DNA from: Clostridia bacterium
Lineage (GTDB): Bacteria > Bacillota > Clostridia > Christensenellales > Borkfalkiaceae
NCBI GenBank assembly: GCA_021202395.1
Contig: JAJQDC010000015.1
Coordinates: forward strand, 75,350 to 110,403
Reading direction: 5' to 3'
Length of the DNA: 35,054 bases
The notes under the pieces were generated by a model. It was not told where the DNA came from and did not search any database. It saw nothing but the letters and a program-made list of their open reading frames with translations. Every line of letters begins with the position of its first letter. Within the stretch, counting starts at the first letter, position 1. Of the stretch, positions 1,651-33,969 are shown piece by piece. The translations under genes were made by a program, and so were the position numbers.

Positions 1651-3374
1651 CTTACGGTATAATATGTTTTGTCGGATGAAAGGGTAAATTTAAGCCCTTC
1701 GCTCGGTTTTTTCATACCGCAAACGGTGCATATATTATCTTCGCCGTAAGAATGTTCGCCGGTTGCCGTAATAGTTAATGTTTCTCTGCTGATTTCCTCG
1801 CCGCAAATAGAACAATAAACCACACTTTCGTATGAGCCGTTTTTACCGCAAGTACCTTCAACGATATTCTCAGCGACCGCTTCCGCGGGGGTATGACTTC
1901 CCAAGGCGTAAATAGTTTTACTTTCCCTACTTATTTGCTTGCCGCACACATAGCAATAAACTACGCTATCATACGAACCATCAACTAAGCAAGTTGCTTC
2001 AACAACATTTTCCTGCACCGCATCTGCAGGGGTATGTGATGCGGGTATGGTTGCTGCTTCACGGCTTAATTCTACACCGCAAACAGAACAATAAATTACA
2101 ATATCGTATGAGCCATCGGTAGTACATGTGGCTTCAACAAGATTTTCTGTTGCAGATATTGTTATAGGAACATGTTTTCCTGTAGCTGCAATAACTGTGT
2201 CGGCAAGCTCGATTTCGGTTGCGGCTTCGCTGTCAGAAAAATATTTTTCACAGCCGGAGCAGTACCAATAACCAATGTTACCGTCCGCGCCGCAAGTGGC
2301 AGACTGAGGCTCAACGTATGTTAAAGAATGGGTGTGCGTAGTACCGCTATCGCCGGAGCCGCCTTCGGTTGAGCCGCCCGATATGTCTGCCAACTTGCCG
2401 TACACTATATAAATATCCGTATCGGTATCGGTAGCGGAATAGCCTTCTATACCGTAAATATATAAACCGGAATCGTTATACCCAAAGGCAAGCATCGACA
2501 TATCTGTTGCCGCCTGTTCATCAGTCCTTGAACTAAGGCTATCTTCTAAATTATAAATATATTGTATGTATTTGCAGTTGCTGACAACTAATTTATAGCC
2601 AGAAAATTCTACACTGCCGCTGTATTGAATAGTACCATCATCATAATTTACCGCAAGCGAAGTGCACTCTGCTATGGTATAATTAAATGAAATTGTAACT
2701 GCATTTATTTCAATGCCGCTATAAGTAATGCCCTGAAAACATTCACCTGTACCATCAGAATTAAAAATAACGGTAAGTGAAACAGTAAAGCCTTCGGAAC
2801 TTAATTCATCCGACATTCCGCCAGATACTGTAGTACCATTTAAGTAGAATGTTATTTCACCGGAATAAAGGTCAAAGGTTTTATCAGCATAAGCAAAGGT
2901 AGTCTCTGTAGAGCCGCCTTCAGTTGAACCGCCTTCAGTGGAACCACCTTCTGTAGAGCCACTTTCAGTGCTGCCACCTTCTGTAGAGCCGCCTTCAGTA
3001 CTGCCACCTTCAGTACTGCCACCTTCAGTGCTGCCGCCTTCCGTACTACCACCTTCTGTAGAACTGTCGCCGGAACCGCTGCTGCCGGAATCAGTACTAC
3101 CAGTGCCAGTGGCGGGAATTACCGTTTCTGACTGGCTGATTTCGGTTTTACCGTTTGAGTCAGAAAAGTACTTACCGCAGCCTGCGCAATACCAGTACTC
3201 GGTGTTGCCGTCGGTCGTTTCTGTTGCGGCATTTTCTTCGTAATGGGTCAATGTGTGCGTGTGTTCATCTGTAAGTGTGGTTGTATTTGTAAACAAGTCG
3301 CACGCAGCAAAGCCGATACAAAGACACACAGCAGACATGATTGAAAGCAAGATAATTAAAATCTTTCTTTTCAT
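1..3374 (-). CDS. BspA-like leucine-rich-repeat lipoprotein (C-terminus beyond window)
   Basis: The frame is open from an ATG at 3374 to the left edge (1,124 codons, no stop seen), so the C-terminus is missing. Residues 1-25 form a lipoprotein signal (MKRK, hydrophobic core, GFAAC with Cys25). Next comes a Cys module (about 40-80, WYCAGCGKYFSDS), ten Ser-Thr-Glu-Gly-Gly repeats (about 105-154), a beta-rich segment (about 158-325), four more Cys modules with HxH/CxxC spacing (about 347-562), and from about 580 onward BspA-type LRRs of 23 residues (TSIGxxAFxGCTSLTSVTIP, LRR_5 type). AAGGAG lies 12 bases before this ATG; an in-frame ATG at 3395 overlaps that site and is less likely. Family knowledge: BspA-like proteins are surface adhesins or binding proteins. 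Inference: exposed on the outer face of the membrane. Ligand unknown. Confidence 0.9.
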   Translation of the reverse strand, partial: MKRKILIILLSIMSAVCLCIGFAACDLFTNTTTLTDEHTHTLTHYEENAATETTDGNTEYWYCAGCGKYFSDSNGKTEISQSETVIPATGTGSTDSGSSGSGDSSTEGGSTEGGSTEGGSTEGGSTEGGSTEGGSTESGSTEGGSTEGGSTEGGSTETTFAYADKTFDLYSGEITFYLNGTTVSGGMSDELSSEGFTVSLTVIFNSDGTGECFQGITYSGIEINAVTISFNYTIAECTSLAVNYDDGTIQYSGSVEFSGYKLVVSNCKYIQYIYNLEDSLSSRTDEQAATDMSMLAFGYNDSGLYIYGIEGYSATDTDTDIYIVYGKLADISGGSTEGGSGDSGTTHTHSLTYVEPQSATCGADGNIGYWYCSGCEKYFSDSEAATEIELADTVIAATGKHVPITISATENLVEATCTTDGSYDIVIYCSVCGVELSREAATIPASHTPADAVQENVVEATCLVDGSYDSVVYCYVCGKQISRESKTIYALGSHTPAEAVAENIVEGTCGKNGSYESVVYCSICGEEISRETLTITATGEHSYGEDNICTVCGMKKPSEGLKFTLSSDKTYYTVSGIGECTDTDIVIPSTYNNLPVTAIASSAFSGQTQIISIYVPDSVTSIGSGAFAGCSSLVSITLPFEGSSASATSASKSTLFGYIFGTSNYTGGTSTKQYYDSGSSKYTTYYIPTTLTTVTITGGNILYGAFYNCTNITSVTIGNGVTSIGEYSFYYCTSLTSFTIPDSVTSIGEGAFSKCTSLESVYYSGTASQWASITFNDSYANPLYSTGNLYLNGTLAIDITLEGITAINDYVFYGCTSLTSVTIPNSVTSIGNYAFYGCTAEIIWDNNPTITEIGSYAFAYYMGTSITIPSSVTSIGDYAFYGCTALTVINFNATAMDELSGNNYVFAYAGQSGDGITVTIGANVTKIPAYLFYLYYFSRGYAPNITSVVFEDDSVCTSIDTSAFYGCISLTSITIPNSVTSISSSVFYGCTSLTSVYYNGTASQWASISFGDNAANPLYSAGNLYLSGTLATDITIENITSINDYAFYGCISLESVTIGNGVTSIGTHAFWYCTSLESVTIGSGVTSIGENAFFDCTSLESVTIPGSVTSIGENAFFDCTSLTS
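2913..3062 (-). repeat. Pentapeptide STEGG linker repeat (10 units)
   Basis: Ten consecutive 15-bp units encode Ser-Thr-Glu-Gly-Gly (one reads STESG), followed by STETT. The low-complexity acidic linker sits between a Cys module and the beta-rich domain and probably acts as a flexible spacer. Codons differ between units, so it is not a perfect DNA repeat. Confidence 0.9.
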
Positions 3375-15207: not shown

Positions 15208-16266
15208 TTGAAAAAGCATCTTAAATTATGCGTCGCACTGATTGTTGTTGCGGCTATACTTATGTCGCTTGCAGCTTTTCTTATTTACTGGTTCTGCGGC
15301 GACAGGTATGAAGACTTTGAAGATTTCAATAAAGAATTTGCGATACCCGGCCTTGACGAAGGGTTTATACCGCAGGGGATGGGCAATTATACAAACAGCG
15401 ATTCCAGCTCTTCTTCTGACACGGTATTTCTGGTAAGCGGCTATATGAATAAAGGCGGCGCTTCAAGAATTTACGTTATAGAAGGCGGCGAAAGCATCGG
15501 CTACGTAACCGTAATGCTTGACGAAGAAACCACTTACGAAGGGCATGCGAGCGGCGTTGCCACCGACGGGATGAGAGTTTGGCTGTGTTCTGACGGAACT
15601 GTTTATGCAATGGCTTACGACGACGTTGTAGCCGCTGCGGCAGAAAACGGCACCGTTACCATAACGGGCAGCTTTGACGCCTATAACGAAGCAAGTTTTT
15701 GCTACTACGACGGAACTTATTTTTACGTAGGTGAATTTTACCGCGAAGGCAACTACGAAACGGATGAAATACACCACATTACAACGGATGCAGGCGACGA
15801 AAACAAAGCCGTTATAATGCGCTTTACGGCAAGCACTTCGGCTACGAGCACAACGGGAGTTTCTTCCACCACACCGGGAAGGGCTTATTCCATAACGGGG
15901 CTTATACAGGGCATGGCTATAACTTCGGGCAGCTCGTCTTCTACGACGTACATAACGCTTTCGCAAAGTTACGGGCTTTCTAATTCTCATCTGCTTACGT
16001 ATAAGTTCACCACTTCTTCGGTAAATTCTTCTACCATCACTTTCTATTCTACCGACGGAAGTGAAAGCAAAGCGCTTACCACATACCAGCTTGACAGCTC
16101 TTGCCTGGTAAACGATTACGAGATACCCAGCATGAGCGAAGGGCTTTGCACGGTTAACAACAAGGTTTACGTTTTATTTGAATCTGCAGGTGCAAAATAT
16201 AAGATGTTTGTGCGTGAAAGGTTGAGCAATGTTTACAGCATAAGAATAAACGGAGACAACTTTTAA
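15208..16266 (+). CDS. Membrane-anchored extracellular beta-rich protein (TTG start), unknown function
   Basis: 352 residues. The start is TTG, supported by GGAGGTG (15197-15203) four bases upstream. Residues 6-29 form an uncleaved signal anchor (no lipobox or clear cleavage site), and the rest is extracellular. The body is beta-strand rich and propeller-like, with recognisable blocks IPGLDEGFIPQGM, VFLVSGYMNKGGASRIYVI, GHASGVATDGMRVWLC and YFYVGEFYREGNY. Two Ser/Thr-rich loops (about 66-71 and 210-224) look like surface insertions. It resembles, from memory, uncharacterised Bacillota surface proteins with a PQGM...SGYM...GHASG pattern; no function is known to me. It has its own promoter and terminator, so it is monocistronic. 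Confidence 0.8.
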   Translation: MKKHLKLCVALIVVAAILMSLAAFLIYWFCGDRYEDFEDFNKEFAIPGLDEGFIPQGMGNYTNSDSSSSSDTVFLVSGYMNKGGASRIYVIEGGESIGYVTVMLDEETTYEGHASGVATDGMRVWLCSDGTVYAMAYDDVVAAAAENGTVTITGSFDAYNEASFCYYDGTYFYVGEFYREGNYETDEIHHITTDAGDENKAVIMRFTASTSATSTTGVSSTTPGRAYSITGLIQGMAITSGSSSSTTYITLSQSYGLSNSHLLTYKFTTSSVNSSTITFYSTDGSESKALTTYQLDSSCLVNDYEIPSMSEGLCTVNNKVYVLFESAGAKYKMFVRERLSNVYSIRINGDNF

Positions 16267-24864: not shown

Positions 24865-24968
24865 TTATATAAGATATGCTGCCGTTTTGCCGTTAAGACG
24901 GTCTGCCAAAAATTTTATTTACGTAAAGCCGCTCATATTTAAAGCAAATAATTTGTAGAATATTGTTG

Positions 24969-26492
24969 ATGAACAATAATATTTACCGCACAACTGCCCA
25001 GGTTACCATATTTTCTATAATAGAAAAGTCAATCAGCTTTTTATACCGCATAGTGCTTTCGCGCGTGATCGGCGCGGAAGGCGTCGGCATTTACCAGATA
25101 GCGCTTTCGGTTTTTGCCGTATTCCTTACGGCGGCTTCAAGCGGGGTACCCGTAACCGTTTCAAGACTTATTACTAAGCAGAACGCCGTGGGCGGCGGCA
25201 GCAGGCACGCCGTTGTAACCGCAGGGATAGTGAGCACGCTTATGTTTACCGTGCCCGCCTGCATAATTATTTTTGCCGGAAGAAACTTTTTCGGCTTTTT
25301 ATTTTCTGACAGCAGGTGTTTAAACGTATTCCTTATTATTTTACCCGGGCTGATACTTACGTCTGTTTATTCGGTAATGCGTGGTACTTTCTGGGGCAAC
25401 AAAGATTTTTTGCCGTACAGCCTTATTGAACTTGCCGAAGACGCATTTATGGTTGTGCTCGGCTGCATCCTTATAACGGGTGCAACCGATGCGGCGGACG
25501 GTGCGTCGCGGGCTGCCATTGCCGTGTTTGTATCTTACATATTTTCTTTTATAGTTTCGCTGGGCTGGTATTTCCACAAGGGCGGAAGGCTTGTAAACCC
25601 AAAAAAACAGCTTAAGCCGCTGCTTGCAAGCTCGCTGCCCATTACGGCAATGCGCACTTCAACTTCGCTTTTAAACTCGCTTGTAGCCGTTTTAATGCCC
25701 TTTTTACTTGTAAGGATATGCAATATGACCAATAGCGACGCGGTAAGCTTATACGGCGTTGCGGCGGGGATGAGCATACCGATTTTATTTATACCGTCTT
25801 CTTTAATAGGTTCCATTGCCGTTGTGCTTGCACCCGAACTTTCGGAAAATTTTTACCGCAACAAGACGGAAAGACTGAAAGACGACGTAGAAAAATCTTT
25901 ACGGGCGGCGGTATTTATAGCCTTTTTGCTTATACCGCTTTTATTTTCTTTGGGAGTTACGATGGGGAACGTTCTGTTTTCTGACAGCCTTAGCGGAGAG
26001 ATTGTAAAAAACTGCTGTATAATTTTACTGCCGATGTGTATTTCTATGATAACAAACACTATACTCAACAGCATGAACAGGGAAAAGCAGACGCTTATTT
26101 ATTACTTTGCAGGGGCTGCCGCCATGATAGCCTGCATTGCGGCGTTTACTTCTTTTGCAGGTATATATTCTTATGTAACAGGTCTTGGAGCAAGTTTTGT
26201 TGTTACAGCAGCTTTGAATTTAAGGCTGCTGAAAAAACTTTGCAGGGGCGTAAAGATATTTAACTTTATATTAAAAGGAATTGCCGTGTGTGCGGCGTGC
26301 TGTGCGTTCGGCTGGCTGTTTGTAAGCCTTATACAAAAGTTCCTTCCGCAAATTGCAGTGCTCGCCGTGGGCGGGGTTGCGGTGGCTGCGTTTACGCTTG
26401 CCTTTATGTACATTGCAAAGATGTACACGCTTGAACCGCTTAAAGGTATTTTAAATAAAAGGAAAGGCAGAAAAGGTAAATCTGCTTTATAA
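24969..26492 (+). CDS. SpoVB/MurJ-family oligosaccharide flippase
   Basis: 507 residues and about 14 TM helices, of the MOP (multidrug/oligosaccharidyl-lipid/polysaccharide) exporter superfamily. It starts NNNIYRTTAQVTIFSIIEKS and has IVLSRVIGAEGVGIYQIA, a hallmark of the SpoVB group, which moves lipid-linked precursors for spore cortex or cell wall. The C-terminus is basic (KRKGRKGK). The ATG at 24969 has no visible Shine-Dalgarno; two in-frame TTG codons lie directly upstream. Its divergent LysM neighbour agrees with a sporulation or envelope role. SpoVB versus a general MurJ-like flippase cannot be settled here. Confidence 0.88.
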   Translation: MNNNIYRTTAQVTIFSIIEKSISFLYRIVLSRVIGAEGVGIYQIALSVFAVFLTAASSGVPVTVSRLITKQNAVGGGSRHAVVTAGIVSTLMFTVPACIIIFAGRNFFGFLFSDSRCLNVFLIILPGLILTSVYSVMRGTFWGNKDFLPYSLIELAEDAFMVVLGCILITGATDAADGASRAAIAVFVSYIFSFIVSLGWYFHKGGRLVNPKKQLKPLLASSLPITAMRTSTSLLNSLVAVLMPFLLVRICNMTNSDAVSLYGVAAGMSIPILFIPSSLIGSIAVVLAPELSENFYRNKTERLKDDVEKSLRAAVFIAFLLIPLLFSLGVTMGNVLFSDSLSGEIVKNCCIILLPMCISMITNTILNSMNREKQTLIYYFAGAAAMIACIAAFTSFAGIYSYVTGLGASFVVTAALNLRLLKKLCRGVKIFNFILKGIAVCAACCAFGWLFVSLIQKFLPQIAVLAVGGVAVAAFTLAFMYIAKMYTLEPLKGILNKRKGRKGKSAL

Positions 26493-26660: not shown

Positions 26661-27035
26661 TTACTTTTGTTTTATGGCAGATTTTAAATCGTAAGTCTGT
26701 TTTATTGCAAGGGCGATAAGGAACGCACCGAAGAGCTTTTGCAGAGCGCCCGACGGTATAAAGGCGGCGAGCGCCGCGCCAAGGGCGGATATTATTACGG
26801 CGGGCACGATTACCGCAAGTATGCCTTTTGGCTTTATAAGCCCGTTATCTGCATGTATTTTAAGGCTTATTGCCGCCATAGGCAAAAAGGCGAACAGGTT
26901 TGCCGCCTGAGCAACGTGCTGCTCTATACCTAAAAATATTGTAATTGCGGGTATAAGAATGGTGCCGCCGCCCATACCCATACCGCCAAGCAGACCGGAT
27001 AAAAGCGCAAAAAGCAAAATAAGATTAAAGCTCAT
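26661..27035 (-). CDS. Half-size TauE/SafE (TSUP) transporter, second subunit
   Basis: 124 residues, about four TM helices, one repeat unit of the TauE/SafE fold, with the glycine motif GLLGGMGMGGGTILIP near the N-terminus. Full-length relatives have two such repeats in one chain of about 250 residues. It overlaps the upstream partner by 4 bp (ATGA), so the two are co-translated and most likely form a heteromer. Family members export or import sulfite, sulfoacetate or other small organosulfur anions; the substrate is unknown here. Confidence 0.85.
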   Translation of the reverse strand: MSFNLILLFALLSGLLGGMGMGGGTILIPAITIFLGIEQHVAQAANLFAFLPMAAISLKIHADNGLIKPKGILAVIVPAVIISALGAALAAFIPSGALQKLFGAFLIALAIKQTYDLKSAIKQK

Positions 27036-27394
27036 AAAACCATCCTTACGCCTGCGGCAAACATAACGGCTATAAAAATTACCTTTACAACCGTTAAAGG
27101 AAGTTTATTTAAAAGCAGTGCGCCCAGCGCGCCGCCAGCCGTCATACCCAGCGCCGCAGGGATGATTACCGAAAAATCTGCATAGCCTGCCGCCCAGTAA
27201 ACGGCTGCGCTTGCAAGGCAGACGGGGGCTATTACAGAAATTGCCGTTGCGTGGGCAGCTTTGTCTTTATAACCCAGAAAGCCTGAAAGCATTGGTACGG
27301 CTATCATTCCGCCGCCACCGCCGAAAAGCCCGTTTGCCGCACCCACCGCACCGCCGCAAACAATTTTGCGCATTGTTTTGTTATTTACTGCCAT
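27032..27394 (-). CDS. Half-size TauE/SafE (TSUP) transporter, first subunit
   Basis: 120 residues, about four TM helices, with the repeat motif GLFGGGGGMIAVPML and a second-half segment AALGMTAGGALGALL. It is the other repeat of the TauE/SafE fold, encoded separately from 26661-27035 by an ATGA overlap. Together the two equal one ordinary transporter. Both frames are intact and both start with Met and end near a helix boundary, so a natural split is more likely than a sequencing error. No Shine-Dalgarno site is close to the ATG. Confidence 0.85.
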   Translation of the reverse strand: MAVNNKTMRKIVCGGAVGAANGLFGGGGGMIAVPMLSGFLGYKDKAAHATAISVIAPVCLASAAVYWAAGYADFSVIIPAALGMTAGGALGALLLNKLPLTVVKVIFIAVMFAAGVRMVL

Positions 27395-27496
27395 AAAGTG
27401 TGCATTGCGCCCTTTTTAAGGCGCTCTCCTTTTAAGACATTTTGCGCAATAAAAATAAAATTAACTTTATTTTCTGCAAATTGTGCGAAAAATTGC

Positions 27497-27551: not shown

Positions 27552-27592
27552 TAAATATAGATATATACACAAAAAATTTTGCAGGTGTTTTT

Positions 27593-30500
27593 ATGTACAG
27601 TAAAAGATATTACTTGAAATCAAAATTCAGAATGGCTATGATTATGCTGCTCAGTATAATTATGGCGATGTCGCTGTTTTTTGCGGCGGCTTGCTCTGAC
27701 GACGATGACGACGATACAGAGAAAACCACTTCTACCAGCGACACGCAGACTATTCTGAACGGCAATTTTGAATTCTTCTCGGACAGCGACGACGAAACTT
27801 ATATTATCTACACGCCGAACAGCTGGTCTTCTACCACGTCGGGTTCTACCAACTATGTAATGAACGGCATAGTTGACACGTCTGACGCAGGCTGGAGCAG
27901 GATAACCGACCCCGACCTTGCGGCAACGCTTGATTATAACAACAGCCTTGACGAAGACGACGATGACTACGACGACGAGTATGTAGACTACAACGGGATG
28001 AAGTCAAGAGATATACCTTATAAGAACACCTATGCAGGAATCAACGGGGAATCGCTTGACGGCAACGACACGTACTACACCCTTTACGGCGATGAAAAAA
28101 GCGGCTACTATGTTCTTAACGACAGCGACGAACAGGTTACCGTATTCTACGACGAAACTACGGGCGTTTGCACCGACGAAAACGGCGATGTTGTTTACAT
28201 TAAATCTATAGTGGACAACCCCCAGACGCACAACGTGATTACCACCGTTTCGGGTGAAGAATACGACGCATACTATGTGGCAGATACCGCCGAAACGCAC
28301 GCTAAAACTGATTATGAAGCGGGCGACAAAGTATTGCTTTATGCAGACGACGACGGCAACTACTACTACGACGCTGACTTTGAATATGAATACGAAAGCC
28401 ACGTTCTGATGATCCATAATTACGTTAACGACGACACCCGTTACGGCACGGCGCAGAGCTACACCTCTTCTACCAGCGTTTCGCTTGAGCCCAACACGGC
28501 GGCGGAACTGAGCGTATGGGTTAAGACAAGCGAACTTATTTACGACAGAAACGGCAGTGAAATTTATGAAGGCCGCGGTGCTTACATTGAAATTGAACAG
28601 ACGGTAGGCGGCTCGGCAGTAGATTCCTTATATATAGAAAATATAAGGACTGACGGCGTAACGGATAACAACGGCTGGGTTAAATACACAATTTACGTCA
28701 ACGGCTGCGACTTTGCAACGAGCACCGTTACCGTAACCGTAGGTTTGGGACAGGCTGAAAGCTCAAGCGATTACAGCGAAGTCTGCGAAGGTTACGCATT
28801 CTTTGACGACGTAAAGTGCACAGTATATTCCAGTCTTACAAAAACATCTTTAGCTGACACCGAAGACGCAGGATACACAATCAACTCCTGCGACCTTACC
28901 AGCGAAGAAGACGAAAAGATATTCAAGATAGAAGACAAGGTTGCAGACGACAGCACCAGCTACTACCTTATAGACCTTTCTTCGCAGGCGGATCACGTAG
29001 ACACCAAACTTAATTCAGGCTCCACTTCTACCGTTTCGGTTGATTACACAAGAGATTCCGATTATTATATTGTTTCTAACGATACAATAAACGGATACAA
29101 CATAGAAAGCAGTACAAAGTATACGGCAGGCAGCACATACAAATATAATCTTTTGACAACGGCTACGCTTAATACCGGATACGACGTTTTAGGCATATTT
29201 GATTTAAACGACCTTGAAACAGATATTAAAAACGCTTTTTCTTCGGGAGCGGGTTACAGCTATTACAGCGACACCATACAGTCTGTGCTTGAAGGGGCGA
29301 CAACGCTGCCCAACTACAGCGACGAAGACAACGACTACGCGCTTATGATTTTATCGGCTTACGGCGCGGCATACACCGCCACAGTAACCGATACGGATAA
29401 TTTTACCGTAAATTCAGGTGAATACAAGATTGTATCTTTCTGGCTTAAAACTTCTGACATGGCGGGCTTTACCGCCGCTACCGTATCGCTTTACGCTTAC
29501 AAGTACGATGCGGACGGCAACCTGTTAGACGCCGAAGGAAATATCACGACGGATATTACAAAGGCGGTTATAGATACAAGCATGGTATCTTCGCTGGCGC
29601 TGGATACATCGAGCGTAACGTTTGACGCAGGCGACGAAGAAGATATTTACGGCGGCTGGGTACAGTGCTTCTTCTACGTGGAAAACACCACCGATTACGA
29701 CATTACGTTTGAAATGCAGATCGGCTTCGGCAACACTACCATTAAGGACACCACCGCTTCTGACTACAAAGCAGGTTACCTTGCGGTAACTAATATACAG
29801 ACTATGGACGTAGACGAAGACATATTCAGCCTTGCATCCACAAGCGATTATGCAGCTTCGTTCACGATGTCTACAAGCGATTCAAGGGAAAATAACTACT
29901 TTGATACCACCGCTGCCGTTAACTCTAACGATATAGAGAGCAATATTACATCCACCACTTCTTACACGGGTGTAAACGGCGGAAGCGCATCGGTAGTTTA
30001 TAAGAGCGATATAGACAGCAGCGGCTTAGATTCAAGGAACAGCAACGGCAATTCCGGCCTGCTGAACCAGGACTACTGGGATAATTATGTTAATGGTCTA
30101 ACAAATGGTAGTTCAGGTTATGAATGGCTGAAGCTTATACTTGAATATAAAGGCTGCTACCTAAACGACGCTTTAATTTCAATAGCAAGTTGGAGCGACG
30201 TATTCGGCAGCACTTCTATACAGCCCCTTCTTATTGCAAACACAGTAAGGACATACGTAAACAGCGAAGATGAAACGTCTTACGCAATGAACTACGGCTA
30301 TATAGCTAACTCGGCTACCAGCGTATCTTCTGACAGCTACGAAATTATAACTGTTAAAGTTTATGTAAGCAAGGGTGCGGTTGCGTATGTATACCTTACC
30401 GAAAAGGACGGCAACAGCAGCGAAGTTATGTCGCTTGACCTGCCCGATTACAACCTGTGGTATGACAGCCAGGGCAACGTGCTTGACGGCGAACCCGACT

Positions 30501-32080
30501 ACGACGACGACAGCTACAAGGTAAGCGAACACATTGTTTACTACCTGCGCGACGACGGGCTGTATGAAGATAAAGACGGCAACCTGTTTGCAAACCTTAG
30601 CAACTACTCGCGTATGTACTACGACCAGCAGGCAACGTACTACGAAGAAGGCGCAACGCAGGCAACCCTTTACGAAGAACTTGACAGCGACACGATTTAT
30701 TACACAGACACCACCTACACCACCCAGTCGGCACACTACCTTATAGCTTACGACAGCGACGGCAGCTACACAAGGGTATTCCGTTACGACTACAGCTACT
30801 TTGGCGACAGCAGTTACCATTATATAATTACAGAGACGGACGACGATGACGAAGAATACGTAACATATTCTGACGCAGTTGCAAACTTTGACGTAACTGA
30901 TGAAATGATAAGGTACGACAACACCGCAGCCGATTCTGAAATGTACGTTGTGATAGACGCAAGGTATACTTCAAGCGGTGAGTTGGCTACTACTATTGCA
31001 GACGCTGGTTACGACAAAAACGGCAACTACGTTGCTGACACATGGCAGACCGTAAACTTCTATATCCACACGGGCGATACAAGTTACGATTACACGCTTG
31101 AACTCTGGAGCGGCGCAAGGACGACCACCGGCGTTGACGAAGACGGCAACGTGATTATAAGCGAAGAAAGTGAAGCGGCGAGCCTTGAAGGTTCGTTTGT
31201 GGTGTTTGATTACAGCAGCGTTACCGTAGACGAAGATTCTTACGCAGACCTGCTTGAAGAATATACCGACGAAATTATAGACGCTTACGTAAGGCTTTTG
31301 AATGCAACGGGCAACCTTAGCATTAAAGATAACGAACAGAACTTATCTTACTACAAGAACCTTTACGACGGACTTGTTGCCGACGGAACGATTGATGAAG
31401 ACGCACTGAAGTCTGACGAGAGCACATATTCTTACTGGAGAATAATAAACAACATAAGGAGCGTTGTTTACTACACCTACTCCCTTTACGACGACGCAGG
31501 CTACGTACCGTTTAACGCAGAGACAGCCGAAGACGACGAAACGGGCTACACCTATTCGGTGGACGATTATGAAGAAACTCTTTCATTCTTAAGCTACAGC
31601 ACAGGCAGCTATGCAGATGACAAATACAACACCTATACAGGAAACTATGTAACGTTTGTAGATTACAGCGCGGTAGACGTAACTGTAGAAAGCGGTGTTG
31701 CTGCCGACGAGGAAGAAGAAGACGAAGACAGCGATTCAACGCTTAACGTATGGCTGTTGGTAGCATCCATAATACTTGCAGTAGTGCTTATACTTACAAT
31801 GATCTCTATCCTTATCCGCGACATTGTTAAGAGAATACGCCGCAAGAGAGTTAACGTTAAGAATGTTTATTCCGGCAAGCGTAAGCACTATATAAGGAAG
31901 CTTGGTCTTACCGAAACAACCGAAGAGCCTGAAGAAGCTGAAGAAACTTCTGAACCTGAAAAGGAAGAAGAAGCTGAAGAAGCTGAACAGCCCGAAGAAA
32001 CTGCGGAACCTGAAGAAACTTCTGCCGAAGAAACACCTGCAGAAGATGACGGCACCGACGGCGAAGGCAAAACAGAATAA
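27593..32080 (+). CDS. Giant surface protein: lipobox, three CBM-like modules, C-terminal TM and acidic tail
   Basis: 1,495 residues. The ATG at 27593 follows AGGTG by seven bases; the frame is open to 27398 but that part reads as leader. The N-terminus has basic residues, a hydrophobic core and a lipobox FFAAAC, then an Asp run. The extracellular body is rich in Asp, Tyr, Ser and Thr. Three regions look like jelly-roll carbohydrate-binding modules: about 55-420 (NGNFEFF, AAELSVWVKTS, GYAFFDDVKC), 570-760 (EYKIVSFWLKTS, YGGWVQCFFYV) and 900-1215 (IITVKVYVSKG, TWQTVNFYIHTG). A helical stretch follows (about 1215-1310), then a TM helix (about 1384-1406), a basic patch (KRIRRKR) and an acidic Glu/Pro/Ala tail of about 70 residues that would be cytoplasmic. 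Inference: cell-surface glycan or protein binding. It has its own promoter and terminator. Confidence 0.85.
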   Translation: MYSKRYYLKSKFRMAMIMLLSIIMAMSLFFAAACSDDDDDDTEKTTSTSDTQTILNGNFEFFSDSDDETYIIYTPNSWSSTTSGSTNYVMNGIVDTSDAGWSRITDPDLAATLDYNNSLDEDDDDYDDEYVDYNGMKSRDIPYKNTYAGINGESLDGNDTYYTLYGDEKSGYYVLNDSDEQVTVFYDETTGVCTDENGDVVYIKSIVDNPQTHNVITTVSGEEYDAYYVADTAETHAKTDYEAGDKVLLYADDDGNYYYDADFEYEYESHVLMIHNYVNDDTRYGTAQSYTSSTSVSLEPNTAAELSVWVKTSELIYDRNGSEIYEGRGAYIEIEQTVGGSAVDSLYIENIRTDGVTDNNGWVKYTIYVNGCDFATSTVTVTVGLGQAESSSDYSEVCEGYAFFDDVKCTVYSSLTKTSLADTEDAGYTINSCDLTSEEDEKIFKIEDKVADDSTSYYLIDLSSQADHVDTKLNSGSTSTVSVDYTRDSDYYIVSNDTINGYNIESSTKYTAGSTYKYNLLTTATLNTGYDVLGIFDLNDLETDIKNAFSSGAGYSYYSDTIQSVLEGATTLPNYSDEDNDYALMILSAYGAAYTATVTDTDNFTVNSGEYKIVSFWLKTSDMAGFTAATVSLYAYKYDADGNLLDAEGNITTDITKAVIDTSMVSSLALDTSSVTFDAGDEEDIYGGWVQCFFYVENTTDYDITFEMQIGFGNTTIKDTTASDYKAGYLAVTNIQTMDVDEDIFSLASTSDYAASFTMSTSDSRENNYFDTTAAVNSNDIESNITSTTSYTGVNGGSASVVYKSDIDSSGLDSRNSNGNSGLLNQDYWDNYVNGLTNGSSGYEWLKLILEYKGCYLNDALISIASWSDVFGSTSIQPLLIANTVRTYVNSEDETSYAMNYGYIANSATSVSSDSYEIITVKVYVSKGAVAYVYLTEKDGNSSEVMSLDLPDYNLWYDSQGNVLDGEPDYDDDSYKVSEHIVYYLRDDGLYEDKDGNLFANLSNYSRMYYDQQATYYEEGATQATLYEELDSDTIYYTDTTYTTQSAHYLIAYDSDGSYTRVFRYDYSYFGDSSYHYIITETDDDDEEYVTYSDAVANFDVTDEMIRYDNTAADSEMYVVIDARYTSSGELATTIADAGYDKNGNYVADTWQTVNFYIHTGDTSYDYTLELWSGARTTTGVDEDGNVIISEESEAASLEGSFVVFDYSSVTVDEDSYADLLEEYTDEIIDAYVRLLNATGNLSIKDNEQNLSYYKNLYDGLVADGTIDEDALKSDESTYSYWRIINNIRSVVYYTYSLYDDAGYVPFNAETAEDDETGYTYSVDDYEETLSFLSYSTGSYADDKYNTYTGNYVTFVDYSAVDVTVESGVAADEEEEDEDSDSTLNVWLLVASIILAVVLILTMISILIRDIVKRIRRKRVNVKNVYSGKRKHYIRKLGLTETTEEPEEAEETSEPEKEEEAEEAEQPEETAEPEETSAEETPAEDDGTDGEGKTE

Positions 32081-32691: not shown

Positions 32692-33969
32692 TTATTTTGA
32701 TAAAATTCTTAAACCTTTGGGGTAATGGTTTTTGGCTACGCCGCCAGAACACTTGCCCCAGCCGAGCGGAAAGCCCTTGTAGGTTACCGCCTGCCAGCCG
32801 CTTGCAGACGGGCTGCAAGCTACTGTAAGCCCCTTTAAGTAGTCGTAAGCCTGCCCTTCAGAAAGCTCTACGCCGCTTACATTTCTGCCAAGGCACATTG
32901 CAAGTGAATGAGACGGGGTGAATCTGCCGTTTACAAACTCGCCAAGGCGAACGCCTGCACGCAGCGTCTGCACTTGCGGCACGGGGCAGCCGTACGGCAA
33001 GGAATACAATACGCCGCCAGCAAGGTACAAATTATCAAACCTTTCAGTAAGATAATCACTTTCAAAGGCGCGGTACAGCTTTTCTTTTTGTTTATCTTTA
33101 AAAACGGGGGCCGCGGTAAAGCTGTTTGTTTCGCCGCCGCATTTGCTCATTAAAGCGGCAAAATGCCCTTCCCCAAGAACCTTGTGCGGGTAAAGCTTTT
33201 CCTGCCGCTCAAGCTTGTATTCTGCGTGTTCAGACAAAAAGCTGTTTAGTTGCCACTCGTCTTCTTCTTCGGCAAACGTACATGTAGAGTAAACTATACT
33301 GCCGCCGTCTTTTAAAAGTTTATGTGCGCAATTTAAAATTTCACGCTGGCGGGCGGCACACATCTCTACATTTTTAAGGGACCATTCGCTTACGGCTGCT
33401 TCTTCCTTGCGGAACATGCCTTCACCCGAACAGGGTGCGTCCACAAGAATTTTATCAAAACAGCCTGCATACTTATCAGCAAGAGCGGCGGGGCTGGCAA
33501 CCGTTACAACTGCGTTGCGTATACCCATACGTTCTGCATTCTGCGAAAGAATTTTTGCGCGGGAAAAGTTGATTTCATTTAAAAAAATTATACCCTTGCC
33601 GCCCATAGACTGCGCAAGCTGCGTACCCTTGCCGCCTGGTGCGGAACATAAATCGAGCACGGCTTCGCCGCCCTTTACGTTCAACAGCGGCGCCGCACAC
33701 ATGGCAGAAGGTTCCTGCACGTAGTAAAGCCCTGCAAAATGCTCTATAAATTTACCGGGTTTTTCTTCGGTAATGTAAAAGCCGTCTTTCTCCCACGGAA
33801 CGGGAGCGACGGCAAACGGAGAGACTTTTGCAAACTCTTCTGCTGGAATTTTAAGCGTATTAACCCTTATACCGCGCACAGCAGGGTTGCCGTAAACGGC
33901 GGCAAAATCGCCGTATTCTGCCGGCATACGGGCTTTTATTCTGTTTAAAAAGTCCTGCGGTACGTTCAT
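32692..33969 (-). CDS. RsmF/NOL1-NOP2-Sun family RNA m5C methyltransferase
   Basis: 425 residues. SAM-dependent cytosine-C5 methyltransferase acting on rRNA or tRNA. SAM motif DLCSAPGGKGTQLA (about 107-120), motif IV DAPCSGEGMFRK and motif VI YSTCTF hold the two catalytic Cys. The N-terminus PAEYGDFAAVYGNPAVRGIRVNTLK is typical. The C-terminal 140 residues (LGEFVNGRFTPSHSLAMCLG ... GWGKCSGGVAKNHYPKGLR) match the RNA-binding tail of bacterial RsmF-like enzymes. The exact target base is not predictable. Its start overlaps the upstream exonuclease gene by 4 bp. Confidence 0.93.
   Translation of the reverse strand: MNVPQDFLNRIKARMPAEYGDFAAVYGNPAVRGIRVNTLKIPAEEFAKVSPFAVAPVPWEKDGFYITEEKPGKFIEHFAGLYYVQEPSAMCAAPLLNVKGGEAVLDLCSAPGGKGTQLAQSMGGKGIIFLNEINFSRAKILSQNAERMGIRNAVVTVASPAALADKYAGCFDKILVDAPCSGEGMFRKEEAAVSEWSLKNVEMCAARQREILNCAHKLLKDGGSIVYSTCTFAEEEDEWQLNSFLSEHAEYKLERQEKLYPHKVLGEGHFAALMSKCGGETNSFTAAPVFKDKQKEKLYRAFESDYLTERFDNLYLAGGVLYSLPYGCPVPQVQTLRAGVRLGEFVNGRFTPSHSLAMCLGRNVSGVELSEGQAYDYLKGLTVACSPSASGWQAVTYKGFPLGWGKCSGGVAKNHYPKGLRILSK

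Follow-up and report, generated by a model that had tools for sequence, protein, structure and literature searches.

Can a single surface protein be held at the membrane by both of its ends, and what would such an arrangement serve? This question is raised by a gene at 27593-32080 (+) in a stretch of 35,054 nucleotides from a Clostridia bacterium of the order Christensenellales (assembly GCA_021202395.1, contig JAJQDC010000015.1; the whole stretch is called the window below). A sequence-only reading had proposed that the gene encodes a giant doubly anchored surface protein with an acidic cytoplasmic tail. We found that this layout is conserved in the genus, and that across the order the C-terminal transmembrane (TM) helix with its basic flank, not the N-terminal anchor, is the constant of the family.

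Layout and topology of the giant protein

The open reading frame (ORF) starts with ATG and encodes 1,495 amino acids (the giant). The ATG at 27593 was preferred over a GTG at 27398 because AGGTG, resembling a ribosome-binding site, lies 5 nt ahead of it; the ATG also agrees with the starts inferred for the orthologues, and a chance ORF or a wrong start was ruled out. Exactly two segments of the giant were hydrophobic, residues 16-34 and 1390-1408, and the layout consists of a signal peptide with a lipobox, an ectodomain of about 1,350 residues, one C-terminal TM helix, a basic juxtamembrane stretch, and an acidic tail rich in Glu, Pro, and Ala (E/P/A), as follows.

27583-27587 (+): possible ribosome-binding site AGGTG, from the sequence
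27593-27691 (+): signal peptide, residues 1-33, alignable across all 35 genus copies
27692-27694 (+): lipobox cysteine, residue 34; invariant (35/35), lipoprotein patterns, lspA in the genome
27746-28828 (+): module 1, residues ~52-412, predicted CBM4/9/16/22-like jelly roll with inserts (AlphaFold2 model and Foldseek)
28880-29827 (+): module 2, residues ~430-745, predicted second jelly roll (model, CBM22 tandem match, hhalign to module 1)
29900-31228 (+): module 3, residues ~770-1212, a beta-rich domain interrupted by a long insert (~940-1145) and probably the third jelly roll (model; weak matches)
31232-31672 (+): membrane-proximal helical plus beta domain, residues ~1214-1360 (model; conserved columns)
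31679-31744 (+): acidic extracellular linker, residues ~1363-1384 (sequence; low pLDDT)
31748-31816 (+): C-terminal TM helix, residues ~1386-1408 (hydropathy, conservation, model helix)
31817-31906 (+): basic juxtamembrane stretch with the motif KNVYSGKRKHYIRKL, residues ~1409-1438 (motif conservation, positive-inside charge)
31907-32077 (+): disordered acidic E/P/A tail, residues 1439-1495 (composition; pLDDT < 50)

The first hydrophobic segment ends in FFAAA-C34, the lipobox pointed out in the sequence-only reading, and satisfies the G+LPP and PS51257-type lipoprotein patterns. Within the genus we aligned 35 full-length copies, the window copy included. Cys34 was invariant among them (35/35), whereas cysteines elsewhere in the signal peptide vary; the PS51257-type pattern matched in 33 of the 35, and in 3 the regular expression stopped at an earlier cysteine. 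The same genome encodes lspA (E 1.6e-30) and a solute-binding protein with a comparable AFAAC lipobox. From these features lipidation of Cys34 is probable. In a sample of stretches of this genome amounting to 294 kb, eight ORFs had a lipobox and none of these had a C-terminal TM helix.

At the other end, the TM helix (Kyte-Doolittle maximum 3.05; residues 1384-1416 in the AlphaFold2 model) was found in all 35 genus copies. DEEEEDEDSDS lies ahead of it; RDIVKRIRRKRVNVKNVYSGKRKHYIRKLGLT comes after it and leads into the E/P/A tail, whose length of about 57 residues corrects the earlier figure of about 70. In the model, the acidic linker had a low pLDDT (predicted local distance difference test) and the tail fell below 50. 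The net charge after the TM helix averaged +9.8 over the first 40 residues and -20.5 over the remainder in the genus, and the tail was composed of E (30%), A (15%), T (11%), and P (10%), and the post-TM region was 39-125 residues long. Next to the membrane, the motif N-x-[YF]...R..[YF][IVM][RK] recurred in 33/35 copies against 0.05 expected from shuffles, a count that takes in the RKHYIRK variant. The single C-terminal TM helix and its positive-inside flank are those expected of a single-pass membrane protein with its C-terminus inside. The topology proposed earlier, with an exported ectodomain and a cytoplasmic C-terminus, is thus well supported.

The ectodomain was modelled with AlphaFold2 from 35-sequence alignments (mean pLDDT 78 and 80). 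Residues 35-815 matched a CBM22 (carbohydrate-binding module) tandem (Foldseek prob 1.00, E 5.4e-7) and CBM16 (E 2.9e-4, TMt 0.54), and many of the lower-probability matches were vicilin cupins. Modules 1 and 2 aligned with each other in hhalign (97% probability, E 3.7e-11), by which they are homologous, and the models support CBM22/CBM16-like jelly rolls for both. Module 3 is probably a third jelly roll: most of it was modelled at pLDDT 80-95, its lectin/CBM-like Foldseek matches were weak (E > 0.01, with none at E <= 0.001 for residues 770-1495), and hhalign aligned it to module 2 at 30% probability. Three jelly-roll-like modules had been proposed from the sequence; the first two hold up, and the third is weakly supported by both sequence and fold. 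The membrane-proximal domain has conserved columns in the genus alignment at Y1293-Y1294, D1300, P1306, N1308, and Y1319. By sequence, no CBM family matched the window protein, PF02018 (CBM_4_9) included; one relative reached PF02018 at E 0.001 and 19.9 bits, below the cut-off of 25.9. No glycoside hydrolase domain was found in the giant.

Neither Pfam nor NCBIfam has a model for the protein. Weak matches in the TM and tail region to AuxB, Syndecan, TMEM154, and Babuvirus_MP were set aside, as they look compositional. A search of PDB sequences with the family profile gave nothing relevant, and literature searches for a described family with this layout found none, and the sequence-only reading had recognised none either; judged by these searches, the family is previously unnamed and without a model in either database. 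The giant is single-copy in its genome: a second match, a 314-residue protein (C42), was rejected as a relative because the common part was only a hydrophobic and acidic stretch.

Conservation in the genus and exchange of the outer anchor

In a search of 61 genomes, the giant was found in 35 of the 36 other genus members, one copy being a fragment. The search of named genomes yielded a single relative; this copy, from the metagenome-assembled genome 'Clostridia bacterium isolate BH.B1_2', is partial and has the same synteny.

A profile of the genus ectodomains brought in relatives from further families of the order, and these were used to build a second profile. This profile matched in 79 of 121 order genomes, a count that includes a few weak module-only matches on other proteins; the match in family f13, a CBM-like module on another protein, was one of these and was rejected as a family member. 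The matches were concentrated in 14 families (f1, f3, f6, f8, f10, f14, f16, f18, f19, f20, f24, f27, f28, and f31), and no match was obtained in the sampled genomes of f4, f5, f9, f15, f17, f21, f30, and f32. The protein was retained in f27 genomes of only 0.8-1.2 Mb. At the fetched loci, the relatives were about 840-1,790 residues long, and the complete ones had one hydrophobic segment near each terminus and none between. All complete relatives examined in the 14 families had the C-terminal TM helix with a basic flank and no internal TM helix.

The N-terminal lipobox was not conserved throughout the order. It was found in nine families (f1, f3, f6, f8, f10, f14, f16, f24, and f28). In f18, f20, f27, and f31, the signal peptides are free of cysteine and have AxA-like ends (AKA|DS, ALA|ED, ANA|ET), and the f19 copies have a short basic N-terminus followed by an uncleaved-looking TM helix. 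On a tree of 39 proteins, two changes suffice to account for these three anchor states: the lipobox, the commonest of them, is replaced once by the uncleaved TM helix (f19) and once by the cleavable cysteine-free signal peptide, in a single clade of f18, f20, f27, and f31 (96% Shimodaira-Hasegawa-like approximate likelihood ratio test). Since the tree was made by a quick method, with long branches and a midpoint root, the direction of change is inferred. Anchoring at both ends as first described therefore stands for this protein and its genus and does not define the family, the lipobox being absent from five families. Loss of the N-terminal cysteine among homologues had been named beforehand as what would speak against the double anchor; such loss was seen at the level of the order and not at that of the genus. 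The family can be read as a natural experiment: the C-terminal TM helix was kept throughout, and the lipid at the outer end gave way to a TM helix in one lineage and to a cleaved signal peptide in another.

The cytoplasmic side showed recurring short motifs. The window tail carries KNVYSGKRKHYIRKLGL, f31-type tails carry YDRRATLH and a C-terminal TDEFED, and [YF]DR about 15-25 residues after the TM helix is common to many families of the order. When each family was represented by a single sequence, [YF]D[RK] close to the membrane occurred in 6/14 tails (1.2 expected in shuffles) and an aromatic-acidic C-terminal ending, such as DEFED, DEFKD, DYDSFNE, or DENDPYNE, in 8/14 (0.9 expected), figures that are descriptive.

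Several other proteins were observed during these searches. In f27 (L107, L119-L122, L173, and L174, from the 0.8-1.2 Mb genomes), the relatives carry a charged cytoplasmic tail of about 150 residues that is probably helical or coiled-coil. Two other giant exported proteins, of 2,230 and 1,353 residues, are encoded at 1325-8017 of L039 (G014) and 2234-6295 of L040 (G006); in both, a C-terminal TM helix is accompanied by acidic sequence and by a conserved C-terminal domain on the cytoplasmic side (DKSF.ARLSQ...SWHFDSFNKGR.KCLKLQ.RGKSMYMYIAL) that had no Pfam match above the cut-off. In other families of the class (L123-L132 and L134), polytopic PMT-like glycosyltransferases bear a fused extracellular CBM-like module, which in several cases follows a lipobox; these class-level matches outside the order were rejected as family members.

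Gene neighbourhood and possible role

The locus is syntenic in the genus, with a SpoVB/MurJ-like flippase, two half-size TauE/SafE genes, the giant, an RsmF-type methyltransferase, and an exonuclease. In the window, the annotated neighbours are as follows.

24963-26492 (+): SpoVB/MurJ-like polysaccharide (lipid II) flippase homologue (PF01943, E 7.7e-19; TIGR02900, E 5.4e-51, below its cut-off)
26661-27394 (-): two overlapping half-size TauE/SafE (TSUP) genes, divergent from the giant (PF01925)
32692-33969 (-): RsmF-type rRNA methyltransferase (PF01189/PF17125/PF13636), in conserved synteny

The flippase gene is kept as a neighbour in the genus and in several families, which hints at envelope work. 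The TauE/SafE exporter is split into ORFs at 26661-27035 and 27032-27394 (-) that match the N- and C-halves of PF01925. Its adjacency to the giant is kept in most genus loci, the split pair is retained in several families, and beyond the genus a TauE/SafE gene, or a pair of them, lies divergently beside the family gene at 13 of 20 loci and at one more in f10 (L038). The RsmF-type neighbour is probably functionally unrelated to the giant. Elsewhere in the window, 15208-16266 (+) encodes a protein of 352 residues that has a hydrophobic segment at its N-terminus and matched nothing in Pfam or NCBIfam, and an ORF at 2938-3243 (+ frame) with the repeat PPSVLPPSVEPP is a short-period DNA repeat that may represent the opposite strand of a different low-complexity gene.

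The reading that we favour, with a little less than even confidence, is that the giant is a membrane-proximal wall-glycan receptor or scaffold that couples the wall to the cytoplasm through its cytoplasmic motifs. The protein would be exported through Sec, lipidated and cleaved at Cys34 by Lgt and LspA, and stopped by the C-terminal helix, which would leave its C-terminus in the cytoplasm. The 1,350-residue ectodomain would then form an arch near the outer face of the membrane, in the inner wall zone, where the CBM4/9/16/22-like jelly rolls may bind a glycan, with wall polysaccharide of the cell itself as the likeliest ligand. The basic motif next to the membrane, together with the acidic tail, would recruit a partner in the cytoplasm or at the membrane surface, and the giant could thereby link wall and cytoplasm, in principle as MapZ does with reversed polarity. 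The N-terminal lipid would be an accessory tether, which other lineages swapped for a TM helix or dropped. Of all this, the computations establish the layout, its conservation, the anchor exchange, and the folds of modules 1 and 2; lipidation, the glycan ligand, the tail partner, and the linker role are deduced. We prefer such a linker or scaffold because a near-membrane arch, conserved cytoplasmic motifs, and an envelope-related neighbour occur together; an inner-wall ligand also seems more plausible than a role as a long-range adhesin, because a doubly held arch would stay near the membrane. A broader version, in which the family is a previously unrecognised core wall-to-cytoplasm linker of much of this order of small-genome Clostridia, its modules reading the cell's own wall glycan, its conserved cytoplasmic peptide recruiting a division or wall-synthesis protein, and its outer anchor exchanged among lipid, TM helix, and none, is in our view doubtful.

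Several points weigh against the favoured reading. Neither ligand residues nor a partner were identified, the surrounding genes are otherwise housekeeping, and the Foldseek matches included MAM-type domains, jelly-roll folds being used also for protein binding or as spacers. The tail motifs were defined after inspecting the sequences and differ from family to family, and the f19 tail is basic and only about 10-20 residues long, so that a long cytoplasmic tail is not universal. In addition, the -3 residue of the lipobox is Ala rather than Leu, which makes FFAAA-C an acceptable site for signal peptidase I (SPase I) as well.

One rival is a plain surface adhesin or a receptor for dietary or host glycans, with a tail serving only for stop-transfer and solubility. 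CBM-like folds could catch external polysaccharide, the E/P/A tail is of low complexity and variable in length within the genus, and f19 almost lacks one; however, a chain tethered at both termini would reach poorly through the wall, no glycan-utilisation genes adjoin the giant, the cytoplasmic motifs are conserved, and near-universality in the genus together with retention in 0.8 Mb genomes fits housekeeping better than a diet-specific receptor. We therefore regard this explanation as unlikely. It is improbable that the giant is instead a transmembrane signalling receptor of Cache/CHASE-like layout, whose tail would inform a cytoplasmic regulator of a bound ligand: the short conserved motifs agree with it, as does the position of the ectodomain between two attachments to the membrane, which in f19 is literally TM-ectodomain-TM, whereas the tail has no enzymatic or dimerisation signalling domain, the ectodomain is far above the usual size of a sensor domain, and the conserved neighbourhood contains no regulator gene. 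The last explanation concerns only the N-terminus, namely that SPase I cuts at AAA|C and leaves an ordinary type I membrane protein with a non-lipidated cysteine. Many genus copies have AxA at -3/-1, and the f18, f20, f27, and f31 relatives use such cysteine-free signals; the cysteine at exactly +1 in every genus copy and in nine families, the variation of cysteines elsewhere in the signal peptide, the presence of lspA, and the AFAAC lipobox of the solute-binding protein make it improbable.

Near-universality in many families of one order, including lineages of about 0.8-1.2 Mb, suggests an important unnamed envelope function. Should the tail prove to bind a protein of division or wall synthesis, this would show how these bacteria connect wall and cytoplasm.

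Comparison with known systems

The giant resembles the CBM4/9, CBM16, and CBM22 modules in the predicted fold of modules 1 and 2 and differs from them in having no CBM sequence match. The PMT-like glycosyltransferases of the class, so labelled from sequence appearance and not from a profile search, likewise bear a CBM-like module, to which the family profile led, but they are polytopic enzymes without the two-anchor layout.

Concerning the anchors, QoxA is a lipoprotein that also carries TM helices. Oxidase subunits II of the CyoA/QoxA type share this feature with the giant, but have two TM helices and a cupredoxin domain and belong to a respiratory enzyme. SctJ/PrgK/YscJ, of the inner ring of type III secretion, combine an N-terminal lipid-modified cysteine and a C-terminal TM helix in one polypeptide, as the giant probably does; they differ in their small ring-building periplasmic domains and in serving a Gram-negative secretion machine, whereas the giant has CBM-like modules and an ectodomain of ~1,350 residues. 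No Pfam or NCBIfam match to the SctJ ring-building domains was found in the giant. In the SctJ family the C-terminal TM helix is typical, EscJ lacking it (PMC5073101), and TM-bearing lipoproteins include CyoA and YiaM (PMC7139219). The earlier premise that lipoproteins normally have a free C-terminus is thereby qualified, and because of these precedents the combination of lipid and TM helix is uncommon rather than new.

The pneumococcal division-site beacon MapZ has a single TM helix, with an extracellular domain on one side and a disordered cytoplasmic segment on the other, and a conserved region of this segment binds a cytoplasmic protein (PMC7055233, PMC4931243). It shows that a layout of this sort is workable. 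Neither the MapZ extracellular domain nor its N-terminal FtsZ-binding segment was found in the giant by Pfam, NCBIfam, or topology. MapZ is of reverse polarity, with a cytoplasmic N-terminus, has no lipid, and carries a different ectodomain; the likeness would thus be an analogy of working, without homology, between two single-pass proteins.

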